Shown here: positions 1,077 to 8,421 of the stretch, one piece after another
Layout of the letters: every line of letters begins with the position of its first letter
Position numbering within the stretch: the first letter of the stretch is position 1
Virus record (IMG/VR): IMGVR_UViG_3300037010_004533
Location: 1-62,148 of that record
DNA: 62,148 nt
Reading direction: 5' to 3' (one strand)
Source of the DNA: a virus
Program-made: the position numbers and the translations under genes
The notes under the pieces: generated by a model
Told to the model about the DNA's origin: nothing
What the model saw: the letters and a program-made list of their open reading frames with translations, nothing else
Databases searched by the model: none

Positions 1077-1979
1077 CTACCGGGTGGCGAGGATCATGTA
1101 GTTCGCGGAGCCCCAGCCGGTTCGATTGGCCCCGCCGCCGCCGGCCGTGATGACCACGCCGCAGGTGACGATCCGGTTCCCGTCATACCAGCAATACGGG
1201 GAGCGGTCGGTGGCCTCGGAGCCGGATCCATAGGTCGCGTCGTGCATCGAGACGATGATGCCGCGCACCTGATCGGCCGTCGCCACGGTGCCATCGGGGA
1301 ACTGCGGGAGGGGGATCTGGCCGCCGTGGGCGATGACACCGCACCGGATGGCGATCCGGTTGGGCAGGTTCAGGGCCGAGTCCAGGCCGGCCACGTCAGC
1401 GGTCGCGTGGCTGTGGCCCACGTTGCTCTTGCCCTGCAAGGTGACGACGAGCCCGGCGATCTGGTCCTGGCTGTGGCCGTGGGAGGAGGGAGCCTTGGAG
1501 TCGAGCGCGGCCTGGAGCCCGGTCACGTCGGCGATACCGTGGCCGTGGCCGTTCAGGCTGCGGGCGGCCAGGGCGTCGGAGAGCCCCGTCACCTGCCCGA
1601 TCCCGTGGATGTGGGAGATGGCCGCCTTGCTGTCCAGGGCGGACTGGAGGCCGGTGGTGTCGGCGATCTGGTGCTGGTGGCTGTAGGGGGCCTTCGCGTC
1701 GAGGGCAGCCTGGAGGCCAGTCGTGTCTCCGATCCCGTGGGCGTGCCCGAGCATGGAACGGTTGGCGAGGGCGTCCGCGAGCCCGGTCACGTCCGAGATG
1801 CCGTGGCTGTGGCCGAGCAAGGACCGCTTCTCCACCTCGGCCTTCAGGTAGCCCGTCCGGTTGGCGAGCTGGGTGAGCGCCCGGTTATCCGGGCCAGCGT
1901 CGCCGCCCAGCACGAAGTCCGAGGTTTCGAGCTGGGTGATGCTGGCGGCCCAGGTGGCGGTTTCGGTGATCGCGGTCAT
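1077..1979 (-). CDS. Tail fibre protein with HxH repeats
   Basis: This 300-residue protein has an N-terminal segment typical of phage tail fibres (about residues 1-55). Six to seven repeats of roughly 22 residues follow (about 56-195), each built on H-x-H-x(3-5)-D-[VT]-[AT]-GL. A distinct C-terminal domain (about 205-300) probably binds the receptor or forms the tip. HxH pairs in trimeric phage fibres bind iron along the fibre axis, so a metal-studded triple-stranded shaft is likely. It follows the gpI gene by 10 bp and is the last gene of the tail operon, the place of H in P2. No separate fibre chaperone was found. Confidence 0.85.
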   Translation of the reverse strand: MTAITETATWAASITQLETSDFVLGGDAGPDNRALTQLANRTGYLKAEVEKRSLLGHSHGISDVTGLADALANRSMLGHAHGIGDTTGLQAALDAKAPYSHQHQIADTTGLQSALDSKAAISHIHGIGQVTGLSDALAARSLNGHGHGIADVTGLQAALDSKAPSSHGHSQDQIAGLVVTLQGKSNVGHSHATADVAGLDSALNLPNRIAIRCGVIAHGGQIPLPQFPDGTVATADQVRGIIVSMHDATYGSGSEATDRSPYCWYDGNRIVTCGVVITAGGGGANRTGWGSANYMILATR

Positions 1980-1989
1980 GAGGTGCTCC

Positions 1990-2802
1990 TTACACGATGT
2001 TCAGGGTCCAAACCACGTCCAGGCTCACGGCCGAGGTCTTGGTCACGGTGGGGGCGGAGGCCGCAGCAATCAGCGTGTCGGCGGCCGTGTGGATCGAGTA
2101 GGCGTCGATGTCCAGGCCGTTCGCCTGTCCCGTCGTCACCTTGAAGTGGATGATCTTCTGTGTCTGGAGGTGCTGTATGTCCGCGATGGGGATGAGCACC
2201 GAGGGCGTCGTGTGGCCGACCTTCAAGTGGTCGATGGTGTCCAGGACCAAGCCCTCGTATTTGATCGCGCCGTCGTGGTGATAGGTCCCATCGTGGCGCG
2301 GACCCTTGCCGGAGACGCTCGACTCGAAGGTGACGCCCAGCTCGATGCTGTCCAGGATGCAGCGGGCCGGCTTCCACGCCTCAATGGTGGGCAGGAGCAG
2401 GGCGAGGTCTGCGTCCGTCATCGGCTTGCCGCAGAGGGGCTGCGTCACCTTGAAGGACGCCCAGGTGCTCGTGCGCTCCTGGATGACGAGGCCGGGCCAG
2501 CCGACCACCTCCAGGGCTCGCTTCAGGGCCCAGGGGGTGCCCCGGAGCTTCTGGAGGGCGATGGCGTTCTGGACCAGCCGGCGCCGGGCGGCCGGCGTCG
2601 CAGCGAGCACCCATTCCATGTCGTAGACGCCGAGCTGCCGAGCCAGGAAGGGGAGCGCCCCCTCCTGGCACACGGTCGGGTCGTAGAGCTGATCCAGGGC
2701 CGACATCGGCACGTCGTCGAGCCGGTCGATGACCGAGGCGAGGCCCACGTTCCGTTCGTCGAGGATTCCCCGAGGGATCAGCGAGGCGGTGACGCTATCC
2801 AT
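1990..2802 (-). CDS. I: Baseplate/tail protein I (P2 gpI-like)
   Basis: This 270-residue protein resembles P2 gpI. Its N-terminal 120 residues include the family pattern of a predicted helical region with LARQLGV and a following segment rich in RRLV and LRGTPWALK. The C-terminal half is longer than in P2, whose gpI is about 176 residues, and may carry fibre-docking sequence. The start overlaps the end of the J-like gene by 8 bp, which suggests translational coupling. gpI joins J at the baseplate periphery and connects the fibres. Confidence 0.85.
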   Translation of the reverse strand: MDSVTASLIPRGILDERNVGLASVIDRLDDVPMSALDQLYDPTVCQEGALPFLARQLGVYDMEWVLAATPAARRRLVQNAIALQKLRGTPWALKRALEVVGWPGLVIQERTSTWASFKVTQPLCGKPMTDADLALLLPTIEAWKPARCILDSIELGVTFESSVSGKGPRHDGTYHHDGAIKYEGLVLDTIDHLKVGHTTPSVLIPIADIQHLQTQKIIHFKVTTGQANGLDIDAYSIHTAADTLIAAASAPTVTKTSAVSLDVVWTLNIV

Positions 2803-3895
2803 TCTGGCTCCCGGAGAAGTGGATGGACACGGTGCCGTCCGCCCAGGCGTTCGAGGCCAGCACCCGGTCGGTCCAGTTCAAGAGCTGGACGCTGTAGACG
2901 CCCTCGACCGACAGCGCCTTGATGGCCTGGGAGCCAACGAGGTCCCGGCCCAGACCGGCAGCGCGGTCCTTGCAGTAGGCCAGGGCGGCGGCGTTCACGG
3001 CGTCCAGCACCTTGTCGGTCAGGGCGCTCGCATAGGTCGTGACGTTCGCCTCCAGGGTGTAGGCCACGCGGGTCGGGTCGCTCACGTCCACGATGTCGCA
3101 GAGGGGGCGCACCGTCTCGGCGGACAGGGCGTCCGTCACAGCGTTCTTGACCGCCGTGGAGGGCAGACCATCATCGCAGAGCGGGTAGACGCCGACCATG
3201 CCCGACCCCAGGTTGAGCACGGCCACGTCGATGATCGAGCTGTGGGCGCTCATCGCGTGGAACTTGTAGGCGCCCTCGGAGCCGGCCACGGAGAACCCGA
3301 AGGGGGCCAGGAGGATCCGACCCCGGAGCTGGTCATCCGTCTCGGCGTCGGACCCGCCGCTGGAAATGCTGGCGGACGTGATCGTGGCCGTGCCGGACAG
3401 GGGGGAGAAGGAAGACCCGCTCGGGATCCCGTTGCCCACGTCGCCAGGGACGAGAGCCTGGGCCATAACGGCGGCCGAGAGCTGGCCGGCGGGGATCACC
3501 ACGTCAGCGGTGGTCTGCCAGATCGAGCCGTTCTGCGCGGCAGCCCGGAAGCCCTTGGCGAAGGTCGTGGCGACGGTATCGACCGTCTGGAGGGTGATCG
3601 TCCAGGTGGTCGAGGCGGCCACGGCGGGAAGCCGGCCGTTCACGCCCACGAGGCGGCCCAGGGCCTCGAGGCGGTCGCCGTTAGCGAAGTCCACGAGGTT
3701 CTGCTCGGCGCTCCGCTGGATAGCCTGCCGGACGAGGCTCTCTCGGTAGGCGAGGAAGTCCACCAGCAGGCGCTCGATCTGCGCCGGGTAGAGGGTCTTC
3801 CCGGTCACGGTCTGGTAGAGCTGGACGAGCTGCTCGACCAGGAGGCCGGGGCTCGTCTCAACGAAGGCGGGAGGGGTCAGGGTATTCACGCTCAT
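2795..3895 (-). CDS. J: Baseplate wedge protein J (P2 gpJ-like)
   Basis: This 366-residue protein belongs to the baseplate J family, which builds the wedge edge of contractile-tail baseplates. Visible family features are an N-terminal helical region with a QLVQLYQTVTGK-like stretch near residue 25, a central beta-rich part, and the conserved segment around DDQLRGRIL. It is followed immediately by the gpI-like gene. In P2 the J gene directly follows W; here four extra genes, including the radical-SAM and Cys-repeat pair, lie between W and J. Confidence 0.9.
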   Translation of the reverse strand: MSVNTLTPPAFVETSPGLLVEQLVQLYQTVTGKTLYPAQIERLLVDFLAYRESLVRQAIQRSAEQNLVDFANGDRLEALGRLVGVNGRLPAVAASTTWTITLQTVDTVATTFAKGFRAAAQNGSIWQTTADVVIPAGQLSAAVMAQALVPGDVGNGIPSGSSFSPLSGTATITSASISSGGSDAETDDQLRGRILLAPFGFSVAGSEGAYKFHAMSAHSSIIDVAVLNLGSGMVGVYPLCDDGLPSTAVKNAVTDALSAETVRPLCDIVDVSDPTRVAYTLEANVTTYASALTDKVLDAVNAAALAYCKDRAAGLGRDLVGSQAIKALSVEGVYSVQLLNWTDRVLASNAWADGTVSIHFSGSQNG

Positions 3896-3907: not shown

Positions 3908-5332
3908 CTACTCAGGGGATCCAGCGTTGGAAGAGGTTGCGAGGTCGTTCATGTTGGCCGACAGCCCGGCCCAGGCGAGCCCCACGATGGTCACGAGTGG
4001 GAAGGGGATGGTTTGGGCCTCGCGGTAGGGGGAGCCCATGACCTTCTCCCAGCGGGGGCCGGCCAGCTTGCCGGCAAGGCAGTCTTCGAGGAGCTGGACC
4101 TTGAACAAGGCGAACATGAGGGCACAGGTGTCCTCCCCGCTGTCCCGCTTGATCGGGCATCCCCCGGCGCAATGCCAGCGGGCGGGGCAGGCAGCGCAAC
4201 GCTCCTGCGAGAAGACCGTGGCCGATTCGCGCAGCGCGAGGACCTTCTCCTGGTCAATGCGGAACTCCTTCCGCACCGGGTCGAAGAATCCGAAGATATA
4301 CCCGGCCGTGTAGTCGGTTTGGTCCAGCCTGGACGCCCTGGTGCAGGCCGTGATGAGGCCGGTGGGCGTGAAGCTCACGCTGGGCAGGAAGGTGGCGCAG
4401 AAGGCATTCCGGAACTGGATGCCCCCGAACCATCCGGAGGACCGCAGGGCGATCCCGTGCTCCTTCGCCACGGCCACGGCCTCAAGGAACGGCGCGACGA
4501 AGGCCTCATCGCTCGCGGATTCGTCCGTCCGTCCGCACCGGCCCACGGCCTCGAGCATCAGGTATCTGGTGGAGGGGGAATAGAGGGCCACGTCCCGCAC
4601 CATTTCGGGCATTCGGTGGGCCGCCTCCCCGGTGATGGTGGACCGGATGGTCGGGATGATGCCGGCCTCCTCCAGCATCCGCAGGCCGGCGCGGACGGCC
4701 GGGAGGGAGCTGGAGCCGTCCGCGTGGGGTCGGGTGTCCTCTCCAGGGTCATAGCTCACCTGGACGCTCATCCCGAGGCCGGCGAGGCGCCGGGCGCTCT
4801 CCGGAGTCAGGAGTGTCCCGTTGGTGACGAGACTCAGCCTGATCTCGGGGCACGACGCCCGCAGCCGATCACAGGCCGCGAAGAGCATGCCGGCGGCCAC
4901 CATGCTTTCCCCGTCCCCCATGAAGGTGACGGCGCATTTCCCGTGGCGCTGATAGGCCGCCTCGATGTGGCGCAAGATCCGGTCCAGGACCTCGGGCCTC
5001 ATGACAGCGGAGTGGTCCCCGCCGTCCGCGTAGCAGTAGGAGCATCGAAGATTGCAGGCGCTTGTGAGGCCGATACTGAAGCCAGAGCGGTCCTCGATGT
5101 CGAAGGGGGCTTGGCTGGGCTCCTCGGGGAAGGGGATGGTGGCGGGGCGGAAGAAGCCCTCGGCCGAGAGCGCAGCGCGGCATGCCTCGGGGTCCGCCGC
5201 CTCCTCCGGAGTCAGGAGCCGGGCCATGCTCAAGAGGGGCGCGAAGGCGATAACGCGCTCGGGGTCGTCCACCTGAACCAGGAAAACATTGTCACCGATT
5301 TGGGAAAAACCGCTTGGAATGTGCGTCATCAT
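3908..5332 (-). CDS. Radical SAM/SPASM peptide maturase
   Basis: This 474-residue enzyme has three visible parts. An N-terminal region (1-80) may bind the substrate. The radical-SAM core has the cluster motif C93-x3-C97-x2-C100 (CNLRCSYC) and a GGEP-like MGDGES at 138-143. The C-terminal SPASM domain is complete: C312-x12-G325-x4-C330, then C379-x2-C382-x5-C388-x3-C392, with further cysteines C403 and C418. Proteins with this layout carry one SAM-cleaving 4Fe-4S cluster plus two auxiliary clusters, and they modify peptides, commonly by forming thioether bonds from cysteine. The start codon is 2 bp after the stop of a Cys-repeat protein, its likely substrate. No key residue is missing. Its setting inside a tail operon is highly unusual. 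The exact chemistry cannot be read from the sequence. Confidence 0.95.
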   Translation of the reverse strand: MMTHIPSGFSQIGDNVFLVQVDDPERVIAFAPLLSMARLLTPEEAADPEACRAALSAEGFFRPATIPFPEEPSQAPFDIEDRSGFSIGLTSACNLRCSYCYADGGDHSAVMRPEVLDRILRHIEAAYQRHGKCAVTFMGDGESMVAAGMLFAACDRLRASCPEIRLSLVTNGTLLTPESARRLAGLGMSVQVSYDPGEDTRPHADGSSSLPAVRAGLRMLEEAGIIPTIRSTITGEAAHRMPEMVRDVALYSPSTRYLMLEAVGRCGRTDESASDEAFVAPFLEAVAVAKEHGIALRSSGWFGGIQFRNAFCATFLPSVSFTPTGLITACTRASRLDQTDYTAGYIFGFFDPVRKEFRIDQEKVLALRESATVFSQERCAACPARWHCAGGCPIKRDSGEDTCALMFALFKVQLLEDCLAGKLAGPRWEKVMGSPYREAQTIPFPLVTIVGLAWAGLSANMNDLATSSNAGSPE

Positions 5333-5334
5333 GC

Positions 5335-5835
5335 CTACCTGTCAGATGATCCACAGTGGACTTCACACGACCAAGACGTGTATACGTAGCAAGTGCAGAC
5401 CTGGTTGCAGGTGCAGACCTGATTGCAGGTGCATTGCTGGTTGCAGGTGCAGACCTGATTACAGGTGCATTGCTGGTCGCAAGTGCAGACCTGATTACAG
5501 GTGCATTGGTTATCGCAGGCGCATACGGACTGGCATCCACAGACGGAAGCGCCACGGAACCAACAACCATTGGCGCCGTCCTGGGCGTAGGCGGCGGCGG
5601 CGGTCACGGTGGGGACACCGTAGGCGCCCGAAGTGCTGTTGAAGAAGGTGGAGCTGTTGACCGTCTTGGGCGCCTCGGCGGCTGGCGGCACATGGTCCTT
5701 GACCTCGACCATGTAGGGGGATGCCATGGTCGTCACCGGGCTCGGCCGCGTGATGGTCCAGGTGGGATTGCCCCAGGACTGGGCCCACGCGGGATTCCCC
5801 CAAGACTGCCCCATGGTGGTGGAGTAGGTGCTCAT
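5335..5835 (-). CDS. Cys-repeat virion protein or RiPP precursor
   Basis: This 166-residue protein matches no family I recognise. Residues 9-26 hold two copies of QSWGNP[AT]W, followed by a Pro/Thr-rich linker. Residues 91-161 contain 21 cysteines. Nine C-x-C pairs begin at 99, 105, 111, 117, 123, 129, 135, 141 and 147, an exact six-residue period with consensus C-T-C-[ND]-Q-[VQ]. C157 and C161 follow near the C-terminus. There is no obvious secretion signal. It sits between a fibre gene (3 bp away) and the radical-SAM gene (2 bp away), so all three should be co-translated in stoichiometric order. I infer that it is the maturase substrate and a tail component. A metal-binding or disulphide-rich protein unrelated to the enzyme is the alternative. 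Confidence 0.85.
   Translation of the reverse strand: MSTYSTTMGQSWGNPAWAQSWGNPTWTITRPSPVTTMASPYMVEVKDHVPPAAEAPKTVNSSTFFNSTSGAYGVPTVTAAAAYAQDGANGCWFRGASVCGCQSVCACDNQCTCNQVCTCDQQCTCNQVCTCNQQCTCNQVCTCNQVCTCYVYTSWSCEVHCGSSDR
5389..5541 (-). repeat. 18-bp tandem coding repeats (CxC hexapeptides)
   Basis: The DNA encoding residues 99-149 repeats with an 18-bp period. Successive units differ mainly at the codons for N/D and V/Q, as expected for recent tandem duplication under selection to keep both cysteines. Confidence 0.9.
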
Positions 5836-5837
5836 GC

Positions 5838-6914
5838 CTACACCTGGACCATCTTGAGGTTGCCGCCGTCCACGTAGAGCTTGTAGCAGTTCCCATTGGT
5901 CAGGTCCTTCAGCACGATCCCGGTCCCGGCGCCCGTAGACTCGAAGCTGTCGGCGGTCATCTTCCCGGTGGTGGTGAAGGCGCCGGTCATGCCGGTGTCA
6001 CCGGCCCGGTTGACGGGGGTGTAGCCGAGCGCGGCCTGCTTGCCGTTGAAGGTGGCCCAGTCGGCGGCCGAGAGGAGGCCGGTCTGCATGTTGCTGGCGA
6101 TGAGCTTGCCGGTGATCTTGGTCCAGGCGATGCCGGTCAGGTCTGTATCGTCGTGGGAGTGGGCGCTGGGGGAGAAGGTGGAGGGCTTGCCAGTGACCTC
6201 GCTCCAGGCCACGAAGCCCCAGGCCGAAGAATTGGCCGTGGCCCCGGCCTTCAGGACGGCGCCGTCGTTCGTGGTCCCGGTGGCAGGGACATGACTGAGG
6301 CCGTCGCCGGAGGGGTGGACGTAGGGCGCGGCCACGGAGATCGTGCCGTCAGCCTGGATGGTGATGTTCGCCCCGATCTTGACGCCGCCCAGCGTAGAGC
6401 CGGTGGCGGCCGGCAGAACGTAGGCGTAGGAGACGAAGAGGGAGCCCTGCGCGTCGATGCTGAGGCCGGAGCCCACCTTCACGCCGCCGAGGGTGCTGGC
6501 CGAGGCCACGGGCGGGGGGAAGGTGCTCGGAACGCTGTCGAGCTGGCTCCAGGGGTGCCGGTGGCTGATCGGGGCGAAGGCGGCCGTGAAGTCGTGGGTG
6601 TGCCCGACGTTGCTCTTGGAATCCAGGGCCGACTGGAGGCCCGTCACGTCGCTGATGGGGTGGCCGTGGGCCGTGGCCGGATAGCTCGCGGGCTTGCCGG
6701 TGATCTTGTCCCAGCCGATAGCCTGGAGGTCGGAGTCGGGGTGGGTATGGGCCTTGCCGACCACGAGGCGGGGGATGCCGTCACGGTCGCCGATGGCGAG
6801 CTGGGGGTTCAGGGGGTCGTCCCACACGGCGGCAGGCTCTCCAGGGCGGAGGGCAACGGCCAGGAGACGGGCCCACAGGCCGCGCTTCAGGCGGAGGTCA
6901 CGAAGGACGCTCAT
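5838..6914 (-). CDS. Tail fibre-like protein
   Basis: This 358-residue protein is built from fibre modules. An N-terminal attachment segment is followed by HxH-containing repeats of the type DVTGLQSALDSKSNVGH near residues 80-105, two TLGGVK[VI]G-type repeats near residues 140 and 175, and a second H-S-H-D motif near residue 250. The C-terminal GNCYKLYVDGG is a frequent ending of prophage fibre proteins. It overlaps the 60-residue gene upstream at ATGA and ends 3 bp before the Cys-repeat gene. Together with the distal fibre at 1077-1979 it gives the phage two fibre-type proteins. Confidence 0.8.
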   Translation of the reverse strand: MSVLRDLRLKRGLWARLLAVALRPGEPAAVWDDPLNPQLAIGDRDGIPRLVVGKAHTHPDSDLQAIGWDKITGKPASYPATAHGHPISDVTGLQSALDSKSNVGHTHDFTAAFAPISHRHPWSQLDSVPSTFPPPVASASTLGGVKVGSGLSIDAQGSLFVSYAYVLPAATGSTLGGVKIGANITIQADGTISVAAPYVHPSGDGLSHVPATGTTNDGAVLKAGATANSSAWGFVAWSEVTGKPSTFSPSAHSHDDTDLTGIAWTKITGKLIASNMQTGLLSAADWATFNGKQAALGYTPVNRAGDTGMTGAFTTTGKMTADSFESTGAGTGIVLKDLTNGNCYKLYVDGGNLKMVQV

Positions 6915-7093
6915 ACGATCTCACCTCCGTCGATGAGGGTGGGGATGTCCACCTGGGCCTGCCTCGTAACGACCTGGGGCAGATTCTTGATCTGGACCAG
7001 GGAGGCCGCATCAAGGGGGGCCACGCCGCCGGGGACGCCGAGCTGGCTGGTGGGGATGTAGTCGGTGCTGGTGCTGGTGCCGGTTTCGCTCAC
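6911..7093 (-). CDS. Small protein paralogous to the W C-terminal tail
   Basis: This 60-residue protein closely matches the last 42 residues of the neighbouring W-like protein. Both contain G-[AV]-PGG-[AV]-APLD, a central LPxVV and a terminal DGGEI. Such PGG-x-A-x-LD segments are common at the N-termini of tail fibres, where they dock to the baseplate. The gene overlaps both neighbours at ATGA. It probably arose by partial duplication of the W extension and may bridge the baseplate to the fibre encoded next. Confidence 0.7.
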   Translation of the reverse strand: MSETGTSTSTDYIPTSQLGVPGGVAPLDAASLVQIKNLPQVVTRQAQVDIPTLIDGGEIV

Positions 7094-7599
7094 TTGATCT
7101 CGCCTCCATCTGCCGACGCAGGAACGTCGATGGTCTTGCCCGCCAGAACCACGCCCGGAAGGTTCGTCGTGGGGATGATTCCGCTCTCGTCGAGCGGCGC
7201 AGCTCCACCAGGGGCGCCTTCCATGTCGGTCGTCAGGTAGACCAGCTCGGTGGACTGCTTCGTGCCGTCCGTGGTGCCCTTCGGATACCAGTAGACGCGG
7301 AGCGTTGATGCGCCATAGGTTGAAGAATCCACTTCGACGCTGGACACCTTGACCCGGGGCTCCCAGGTTTCGATGGCGTCGGTGACGAGCCGGACGATCT
7401 TGGCGGTCATGCCCACCTGCGGGTTATCCACAAGCCCAAGCAAGTCGCAGCCGAACTCCGGGCGATGGGGGATGGTTCCCTTGGGGGTGCTCAGGATGAT
7501 CTTGATGGCCTGCGAAAGCTCGTCGATGCCGGTGACAACGGCACCAGACACGCCGAGCGCAGGCTGCCAGTAGGGGACTGCCGGGAGGTCGTAGGCCAT
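7090..7599 (-). CDS. W: Baseplate assembly protein W (gp25-like)
   Basis: This 169-residue protein carries the gp25/W fold over about residues 15-125. Visible family elements are ELSQAIKIIL, the PHRPEFGCDLLGL stretch and WEPRVKV followed by beta strands. gp25-like proteins form the inner wedge of contractile baseplates and nucleate sheath assembly. The last 42 residues are an extension not present in P2 W and are paralogous to the next small protein. A terminator and one of the five late motifs lie just upstream, so W probably starts a new transcript. Confidence 0.87.
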   Translation of the reverse strand: MAYDLPAVPYWQPALGVSGAVVTGIDELSQAIKIILSTPKGTIPHRPEFGCDLLGLVDNPQVGMTAKIVRLVTDAIETWEPRVKVSSVEVDSSTYGASTLRVYWYPKGTTDGTKQSTELVYLTTDMEGAPGGAAPLDESGIIPTTNLPGVVLAGKTIDVPASADGGEIK

Positions 7600-7701: not shown

Positions 7702-8421
7702 CTAATTCGGGACGGTGGTGACGGCGTTGCTCCCCTGGGCCGTGTGGGTGTGGGCGTTGAAGCTCCGGCCAACGGAGAGCAGGTCGGTGTCGCTCTTGAT
7801 GGTCCCCTGGACGCGGAGCTTGCCGGGAACCGAGCCGTTCGAGTCGAGGGCTTCGTTCCCTACACCGATCCCCCCATTGGCGAGCAGGGGCCCGTCTACC
7901 TGGAGCAGGCCCGAGACGCGGGTGATCGGGGCCTTGAGGTCCACACGACCGGAGGCCTGGACCTGGGCTGTGGCACAGGTGGCGTTGATGTGGCCCGTGG
8001 CGGTGGCGTCGATGTTCTGCCCGGCGGTGGCCGTGATGGAGCGCCCGGCGTGAACCGTCACATCCCCGGGGGTGTCGATGAGCACGGTGGAGGCCGTGGG
8101 GTCCACCTTGATCTTCGTGCCGTCCTCAGTCTCCACGTAGAACAGCTTCGGGTCGGAGACGGGGGCGGGATCTGGGGTCGAATATAGGGCGCCGAGAACG
8201 ATTCCGTCCTCGCCGTTCTCGTCCAGGAGGACGACCACCTGGCTACTCACCCTGGGGAGCCAGTAGACCTTGGCGCCGAGGGCGAAGGGGACGGCCATCG
8301 GGAGCCAGTCTGTGATGATGTTGTCCTCGTCGGGGAGCCGGACGCGGAGCTTGGCCTTGGCCCCGTCTACCGCGATGACGATGCCGCGCCTCCAGGCGGG
8401 CTTGGGTTCAGCTTGCGACAT
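7702..8421 (-). CDS. V: Baseplate spike protein V (P2 gpV-like)
   Basis: This 239-residue protein starts with an OB-fold-like domain (about 10-90, with RGIVIAVDGAKAKLRVRLPDED). A repetitive beta region typical of the spike helix follows (105-190). Near the C-terminus is NAHTHT, the HxH that binds iron at the tip of P2-family membrane-piercing spikes. The length is close to that of P2 gpV (211). It overlaps the D gene by 14 bp. Confidence 0.9.
   Translation of the reverse strand: MSQAEPKPAWRRGIVIAVDGAKAKLRVRLPDEDNIITDWLPMAVPFALGAKVYWLPRVSSQVVVLLDENGEDGIVLGALYSTPDPAPVSDPKLFYVETEDGTKIKVDPTASTVLIDTPGDVTVHAGRSITATAGQNIDATATGHINATCATAQVQASGRVDLKAPITRVSGLLQVDGPLLANGGIGVGNEALDSNGSVPGKLRVQGTIKSDTDLLSVGRSFNAHTHTAQGSNAVTTVPN

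Follow-up and report, generated by a model that had tools for sequence, protein, structure and literature searches.

Cys-repeat proteins encoded with radical-SAM/SPASM enzymes in phages: a probable cross-linking pair in the tail operon of a temperate myophage

The known targets of radical-SAM peptide stapling are small secreted peptides and one enzyme subunit, and radical-SAM/SPASM enzymes encoded beside Cys-rich substrates modify those substrates. Several described systems bear comparison with the locus presented here. The PapB/PapA ranthipeptide system (NF047865) also places a radical-SAM/SPASM enzyme beside a Cys-repeat substrate with acidic or amide acceptors; PapB links Cys to Asp or Glu and tolerates Cys-X(0-6)-Asp spacing (PMC9413430). 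The SCIFF maturase CteB (TIGR03974; PDB 5why) acts on a short chromosomal clostridial peptide, while QhpD (TIGR03906; quinohaemoprotein amine dehydrogenase) is a radical-SAM/SPASM enzyme whose thioether-linked product is a structural subunit and not a secreted peptide. Among phages, radical-SAM proteins are collected in PHROG 1802, which has no assigned function, and one report on the Campylobacter group II phages describes 11–12 radical-SAM proteins in these phages, called highly unusual there, and a single in-gene 21-bp repeat carried by CPT_0180 (PMC2853527).

The locus described here lies in a window of 62,148 nt, the whole stretch of DNA that was analysed (positions 1 to 62,148 of IMG/VR virus record IMGVR_UViG_3300037010_004533). 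Pfam and PHROG matches to terminase, portal, head protease, sheath, tape measure, V, W, J, I, two PTR-type fibres and integrase identify it as a temperate myophage. The late genes on the minus strand run in the order V – W – 60-aa ORF – fibre – Cys-repeat protein – radical-SAM enzyme – J – I – fibre – integrase (Table 1). Because the gaps from fibre to Cys gene, from Cys gene to enzyme and from enzyme to J are 2, 2 and 12 bp, these four genes read as a single operon, and the pair lies co-directionally inside the late tail operon. The original prediction of a complete radical-SAM/SPASM enzyme starting 2 bp after a 166-residue protein with 21 cysteines, both between a fibre gene and baseplate J and without a protease or exporter, agrees with the ORFs and domain matches in each respect. 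No leader peptidase, exporter or leader cleavage site was found near the pair among the window ORFs or by Pfam and PHROG searches, and only tail genes and the integrase flank it. The accompanying statement that P2-type phages have nothing at this position was too simple. The two closest relatives found via gpJ (60–61% identical) do keep the tail order without either gene of the pair, and L441 has no convincing gene between fibre and J, but L440 has other, Cys-free genes there. In a separate observation, the 60-aa ORF (6911–7093) and the C terminus of gp25/W share the motif xNLPxVV...DxPxxxDGGEI, which would fit duplication of a fibre-attachment module.

Table 1. Positions of the paired genes and their neighbours in the window and, in the last row, of a Campylobacter phage CP220 region in locus L458.
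Feature	Position	Strand	Evidence or remark
Radical-SAM/SPASM enzyme, 474 aa	3908..5332	-	CX3CX2C, seven SPASM cysteines; PF04055 57 bits, E 2.6e-15; PHROG 1802 E 9e-29 over residues 85-413; fold closest to CteB 5why
Cys-repeat protein, 166 aa, 21 Cys, proposed substrate	5335..5835	-	(CTC[ND]Q[VQ]) repeats; without database family
DNA tandem array coding for CxC hexapeptides	5389..5523	-	18/36-bp units, matching up to 95%
Tail fibre with phage tail repeat (PTR), 358 aa, 2 bp upstream of Cys gene	5838..6914	-	PF12789 4e-8; tail PHROGs
Baseplate J, 12 bp downstream of enzyme	2795..3895	-	PF04865 4e-47
Tail protein I (gpI)	1990..2802	-	PF09684 1e-21
Second PTR tail fibre	1077..1979	-	PF12789 2e-39
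Baseplate wedge gp25/W	7090..7599	-	PF04965 3e-15
Baseplate spike V	7702..8421	-	PF04717 7e-8
CP220 gp140 and radical-SAM gp136	L458 5933-7537 and 9743-10912		

The window enzyme belongs to the radical-SAM superfamily with a SPASM domain by both of its cysteine motifs, its TIM-barrel domain (Pfam Radical_SAM) and its fold match. The cluster motif C93-x3-C97-x2-C100 reads CNLRCSYC, and the SPASM set is arranged as C312-x12-G-x4-C330 ... C379-x2-C382-x5-C388-x3-C392 ... C403. The best solved fold for the predicted model (pLDDT 63) is that of the thioether maturase CteB. The best NCBIfam match is also to a thioether maturase, PapB, with 71.3 bits against a cut-off of 340; StsB (sactipeptide) and YhhB (cyclophane) follow just behind at 54 and 50 bits, and the enzyme falls below the SCIFF maturase (38.8 bits, cut-off 425) and QhpD (44 bits, cut-off 453) thresholds. 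With the PapB score so far under its cut-off, the chemistry is not readable from family membership. A PqqD Pfam match, as a sign of a RiPP recognition element (RRE), was not found in the enzyme; residues 17–56 are modelled at moderate confidence as three strands and two helices, which is suggestive only of an N-terminal RRE domain. The closest relatives of the enzyme are chromosomal, the best at 35% identity over 312 aa, and in the large tree it falls within a supported clade of chromosomal enzymes (99/97) and not with PHROG 1802. On a smaller tree, placing it with phage family A or with family B was not rejected by AU tests (p 0.079 and 0.23, respectively). Its position suggests that the window enzyme was likely recruited independently, apart from the phage clades.

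The Cys-repeat protein carries C-T-C-[ND]-Q-[VQ] hexapeptides (CTCNQV type) toward its end, followed by a short non-repeat tail. From CACDNQ onward there are eight hexapeptide units, and in all of them the Cys residues are unchanged while the remaining positions vary. It is a separate small protein rather than the end of the fibre itself, and is without an S74 or Hint domain. No match to it was found in Pfam, NCBIfam or PHROGs, and tblastn found no direct phage homologues; in IMG/VR only an identical copy and L443 were found, the latter being another phage with a fibre, a radical-SAM gene and a protein ending CTCENVCSCNQVCTCNCDSHY. Structure prediction was uninformative (pLDDT 38). The pair shows the RiPP arrangement of a modifying enzyme next to a precursor, while a leader peptidase or exporter and a released small product were not found in the window flanks. 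It departs from PapB/PapA in lying in a tail operon with no exporter and in its unit, CTC[ND]Q[VQ], whose CxC[ND] spacing is not the CX3D/E of PapB substrates. Since PapB accepts Cys-X(0-6)-Asp, this spacing is no bar. QhpD, despite its structural substrate, has no repeat and is not from a phage.

A search of viral DNA for co-occurrence of CxC-repeat proteins and the enzyme supports the pairing. Viral contigs were scanned with DNA patterns for CxC repeats alone, blind to the enzyme. Most matches of the first scan proved to be out-of-frame repeats and were reused as controls, giving 155 loci from the same scans in which the pattern lay outside a plausible ORF. Proteins of 100 aa or more whose repeat is C-terminal or lies just ahead of an S74 site formed 22 clusters (IMG/VR). 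A radical-SAM/SPASM gene was present in the same locus in 16 of the 22 clusters and in 1 of the 155 controls, as counted with an HMM seeded from some of these loci; five of the six clusters without the enzyme end at a contig or locus end within 2.5 kb. Because of that seeding, an HMM-free regex count was added, which found the enzyme in 38 of 62 loci and in 1 of 155 controls (p 9e-25). Where both genes occur they are on the same strand (41/41), with a median gap of 0.9 kb, and in L043, L059 and L208 the gene immediately ahead of the enzyme codes for a 133-aa protein with 21 Cys, like the arrangement in the window. Asn or Asp follows CxC in most units, a placement that the viral pattern itself fixes but that recurs in chromosomal loci found without the motif. 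Some phage radical-SAM genes have no nearby CxC protein, as seen in a radical-SAM-led viral scan and in Erwinia phage Caitlin, where none was found within 8 kb of the radical-SAM genes.

The phage CxC partners are often tail fibres. L120 and L225 match tail-fibre PHROGs, the latter with collagen repeats, and in L074, L076 and L122 the CxC repeat stops right before Peptidase_S74 (PF13884). The S74 domain is a trimerising chaperone that cuts itself off. In the cultured Achromobacter phages JWF and 2-1, the fibre's CxC run stands directly before a Hint domain (JWF ...CNCDCNCNCSCFPAGTMVLMADGT; PF05203, 3e-12), and a PHROG 1802 enzyme (PJWF_00030 in JWF) is encoded two genes from this CxC-Hint fibre; the link between PHROG 1802 and CxC proteins is drawn here. 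The repeat is therefore at the free C terminus of the fibre, or would come to lie there after self-cleavage. The Campylobacter phages CP220, CPt10 and IBB_35 resemble the window in having a CxC-repeat protein near a radical-SAM gene, and differ in using a 7-residue repeat. The repeat of gp140/CPT_0180 encodes CTCDCNY units with 35 Cys; in CP220 it lies 2.2 kb from the radical-SAM gene gp136, with an RNA ligase/tail-fibre attachment gene between the two, and IBB_35 has the same protein. Mass-spectrometry data exist for 38 IBB_35 virion proteins (PMC3322345). The parts of the Campylobacter group II phage literature covered, including those of PMC2853527, do not link the in-gene repeat with the radical-SAM genes. 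The gp140 pairing may explain part of the high radical-SAM load of these phages.

The same association was seen from the opposite direction in bacterial chromosomes. Among loci found through the enzyme, 9 of 15 encode an adjacent protein with the CTC[ND]x[VI] repeat, and the seven loci closest to the window enzyme (BLAST E at or below 1e-19) are all among these nine. In 297 Acidobacteriota genomes the motif occurs in 9, the enzyme in 11 and both in 8 (Fisher p 1e-12); the match in the ninth motif genome is not in an ORF. Wide occurrence of the Cys protein without the enzyme, which would speak against the pair, was thus not encountered for CTC[ND]x[VI] in these 297 genomes, every in-ORF match being in a genome with the enzyme. 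On chromosomes the repeat is carried by WD40-propeller proteins whose N-termini are Tat-like, e.g. ...PCGSPIPPGAVCTCNCVPG...ICTCNKVCTCIPVP, and in L426 and L428 an S74 domain comes right after the CxC repeat (2e-9 and 1e-9). The chromosomal kin of the enzyme score best to the PapB, SCIFF, nif11-peptide and QhpD maturases, a set that includes several thioether-forming enzymes, with PapB the best NCBIfam match of several; none of the WD40-partner enzymes tested reaches an NCBIfam cut-off. WD40 proteins with C-terminal CTC[ND]x[VI] repeats beside one or several radical-SAM/SPASM genes were observed in L426, L428, L429, L430, L431, L432 and L439. The Tannerella MAG L386 provides a further example of a chromosomal WD40-CTCN pair. 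The CxC repeats returned by the bacterial genome scan itself were mostly low-complexity CDCDC or Firmicutes CGCNTG proteins without a radical-SAM gene, and were set aside as different proteins. The Firmicutes loci L291, L298, L307 and L337 encode CGCN[TN]G hexapeptide-repeat proteins with no nearby radical-SAM gene, a different use of CxC.

The conserved pairing in unrelated phages and in chromosomes supports the conclusion that the enzyme and the Cys-repeat protein belong together. The two genes are probably a substrate–enzyme pair within the tail operon, the enzyme cross-linking the repeat, most likely by thioethers, in a tail component. It is very likely that the enzyme acts on the window Cys protein. 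The location of its gene within the tail operon is as expected of a tail-fibre component, and the protein quite likely resides in the virion tail; a thioether, suggested by analogy to the maturases named above, is the favoured product. During phage assembly in the cell, the enzyme would convert the CTC[ND]x[VI] repeat of the 166-aa protein into a thioether ladder whose links run from Cys sulphurs to carbons of side chains or of the backbone; the conserved Asn/Asp that follows each CxC is the candidate acceptor. Plain disulphides are unlikely in the reducing cytoplasm where virions are made, so an enzyme could be needed. Once modified, the repeat would be a compact segment that withstands reduction and proteases, located distally on a tail fibre or on an accessory tail protein, although a mechanical role is proposed only tentatively. 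The original proposal that the phage staples one of its own tail proteins thus gains from the conserved pairing and from the repeat being a tail-fibre feature in phages, while the chemistry of the link is something we infer. A broader reading, which could fall either way, is that many kinds of phage carry fibres with an exposed end of CxC repeats, in some freed by self-cleaving S74 or Hint domains, cross-linked by a dedicated radical-SAM enzyme, and that the same module sits on bacterial WD40 proteins with Tat-like signals.

Of the other readings, the one with most to recommend it is that the enzyme makes a different bond on the repeat: an alpha-carbon sactionine, a C–C cyclophane, an epimerisation or a beta-carbon oxidation. 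The superfamily makes all four, and StsB and YhhB score close behind PapB; within the repeat, however, only Cys never varies, and most units have Asn/Asp after CxC, a pattern that points rather to sulphur joined to a side chain and leaves these other bonds doubtful. A metal or iron-sulphur site formed by the CxC repeat in the tail tip, with the enzyme doing other work or helping to load metal, would suit the good ligand properties of CxC clusters, the known presence of metal ions and Fe-S clusters in the tail tips of phages, and the Firmicutes CxC repeats that lack a radical-SAM gene (L291, L298, L307). It is unlikely, as it leaves unexplained the co-occurrence of repeat and radical-SAM/SPASM gene in 16 of 22 phage clusters and in eight of nine chromosomal motif genomes, and this enzyme class is known for peptide modification, not metal loading.

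The pair could instead be RiPP cargo that serves the lysogen or acts against the host, and that sits in the tail operon without having any part in the virion: the kin enzymes are chromosomal and close phages lack the pair, as with accessory cargo. Such a role appears improbable given the missing protease, exporter and leader cleavage site, the embedding of the pair co-directionally with gaps of 2–12 bp in a late tail operon, and the fact that in other phages the CxC end belongs to the fibre itself; for want of the same functions, the suggestion in the original prediction that a modified peptide is delivered to the host lacks support. Finally, the genes might be neighbours by chance and the enzyme act elsewhere, for example on a glycan or sulfatase. 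The JWF homologue is annotated as a sulfatase-maturating enzyme, and the unpartnered phage radical-SAM genes noted above fit this account, yet the association statistics in phages and chromosomes and the joint absence of the two genes from relatives make it very improbable. Against cross-linking of a tail protein, the favoured reading, stands the fact that the closest enzymes are encoded in chromosomes, where they serve WD40 proteins whose N-termini are Tat-like and have no part in tails.

In phages that are unrelated to one another, radical-SAM stapling appears here to go together with structural proteins of the virus. If this is correct, tail maturation gains a further covalent class, long-unexplained phage radical-SAM genes (PHROG 1802, and some of those in the Campylobacter group II phages) acquire a use, enzymes for cross-linking repeat proteins become available ready-made, and a chromosomal WD40-CTCN system that is apparently undescribed comes to light. 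A search of the open PMC library found no report that connects radical-SAM modification with the tail proteins of phages. The earlier remark that no phage tail system of this kind has been described therefore stands within that library, but the pair is not unique to this phage, and the CxC/radical-SAM pattern in phages is apparently wider and undescribed. The cultured Achromobacter and Campylobacter phages carry the pair, which makes it directly testable.

Further Cys-rich proteins were seen in the viral scans. One CxC family was among the matches of the radical-SAM-led scan, most others being without SPASM motifs and CxC: in L463–L466, a phage protein of 356–364 aa with 83–86 Cys in CTCNCNYS repeats, found via the enzyme search, lies downstream of a short radical-SAM gene. 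Human-faecal "phage" matches of the enzyme (MT83xxxx) were dropped, as those opened look like host DNA, e.g. SCIFF. In L165 (3818–5040), a pair of paralogous Cys-repeat proteins, one with 31 and the other with 35 Cys, is accompanied by five radical-SAM-type genes next to two tail-fibre-like genes. L050 (3860–13343) has a run of very Cys-rich CNSRT-repeat proteins, with tens of Cys each, beside glycosyltransferase-like genes, possibly another modified-repeat system.
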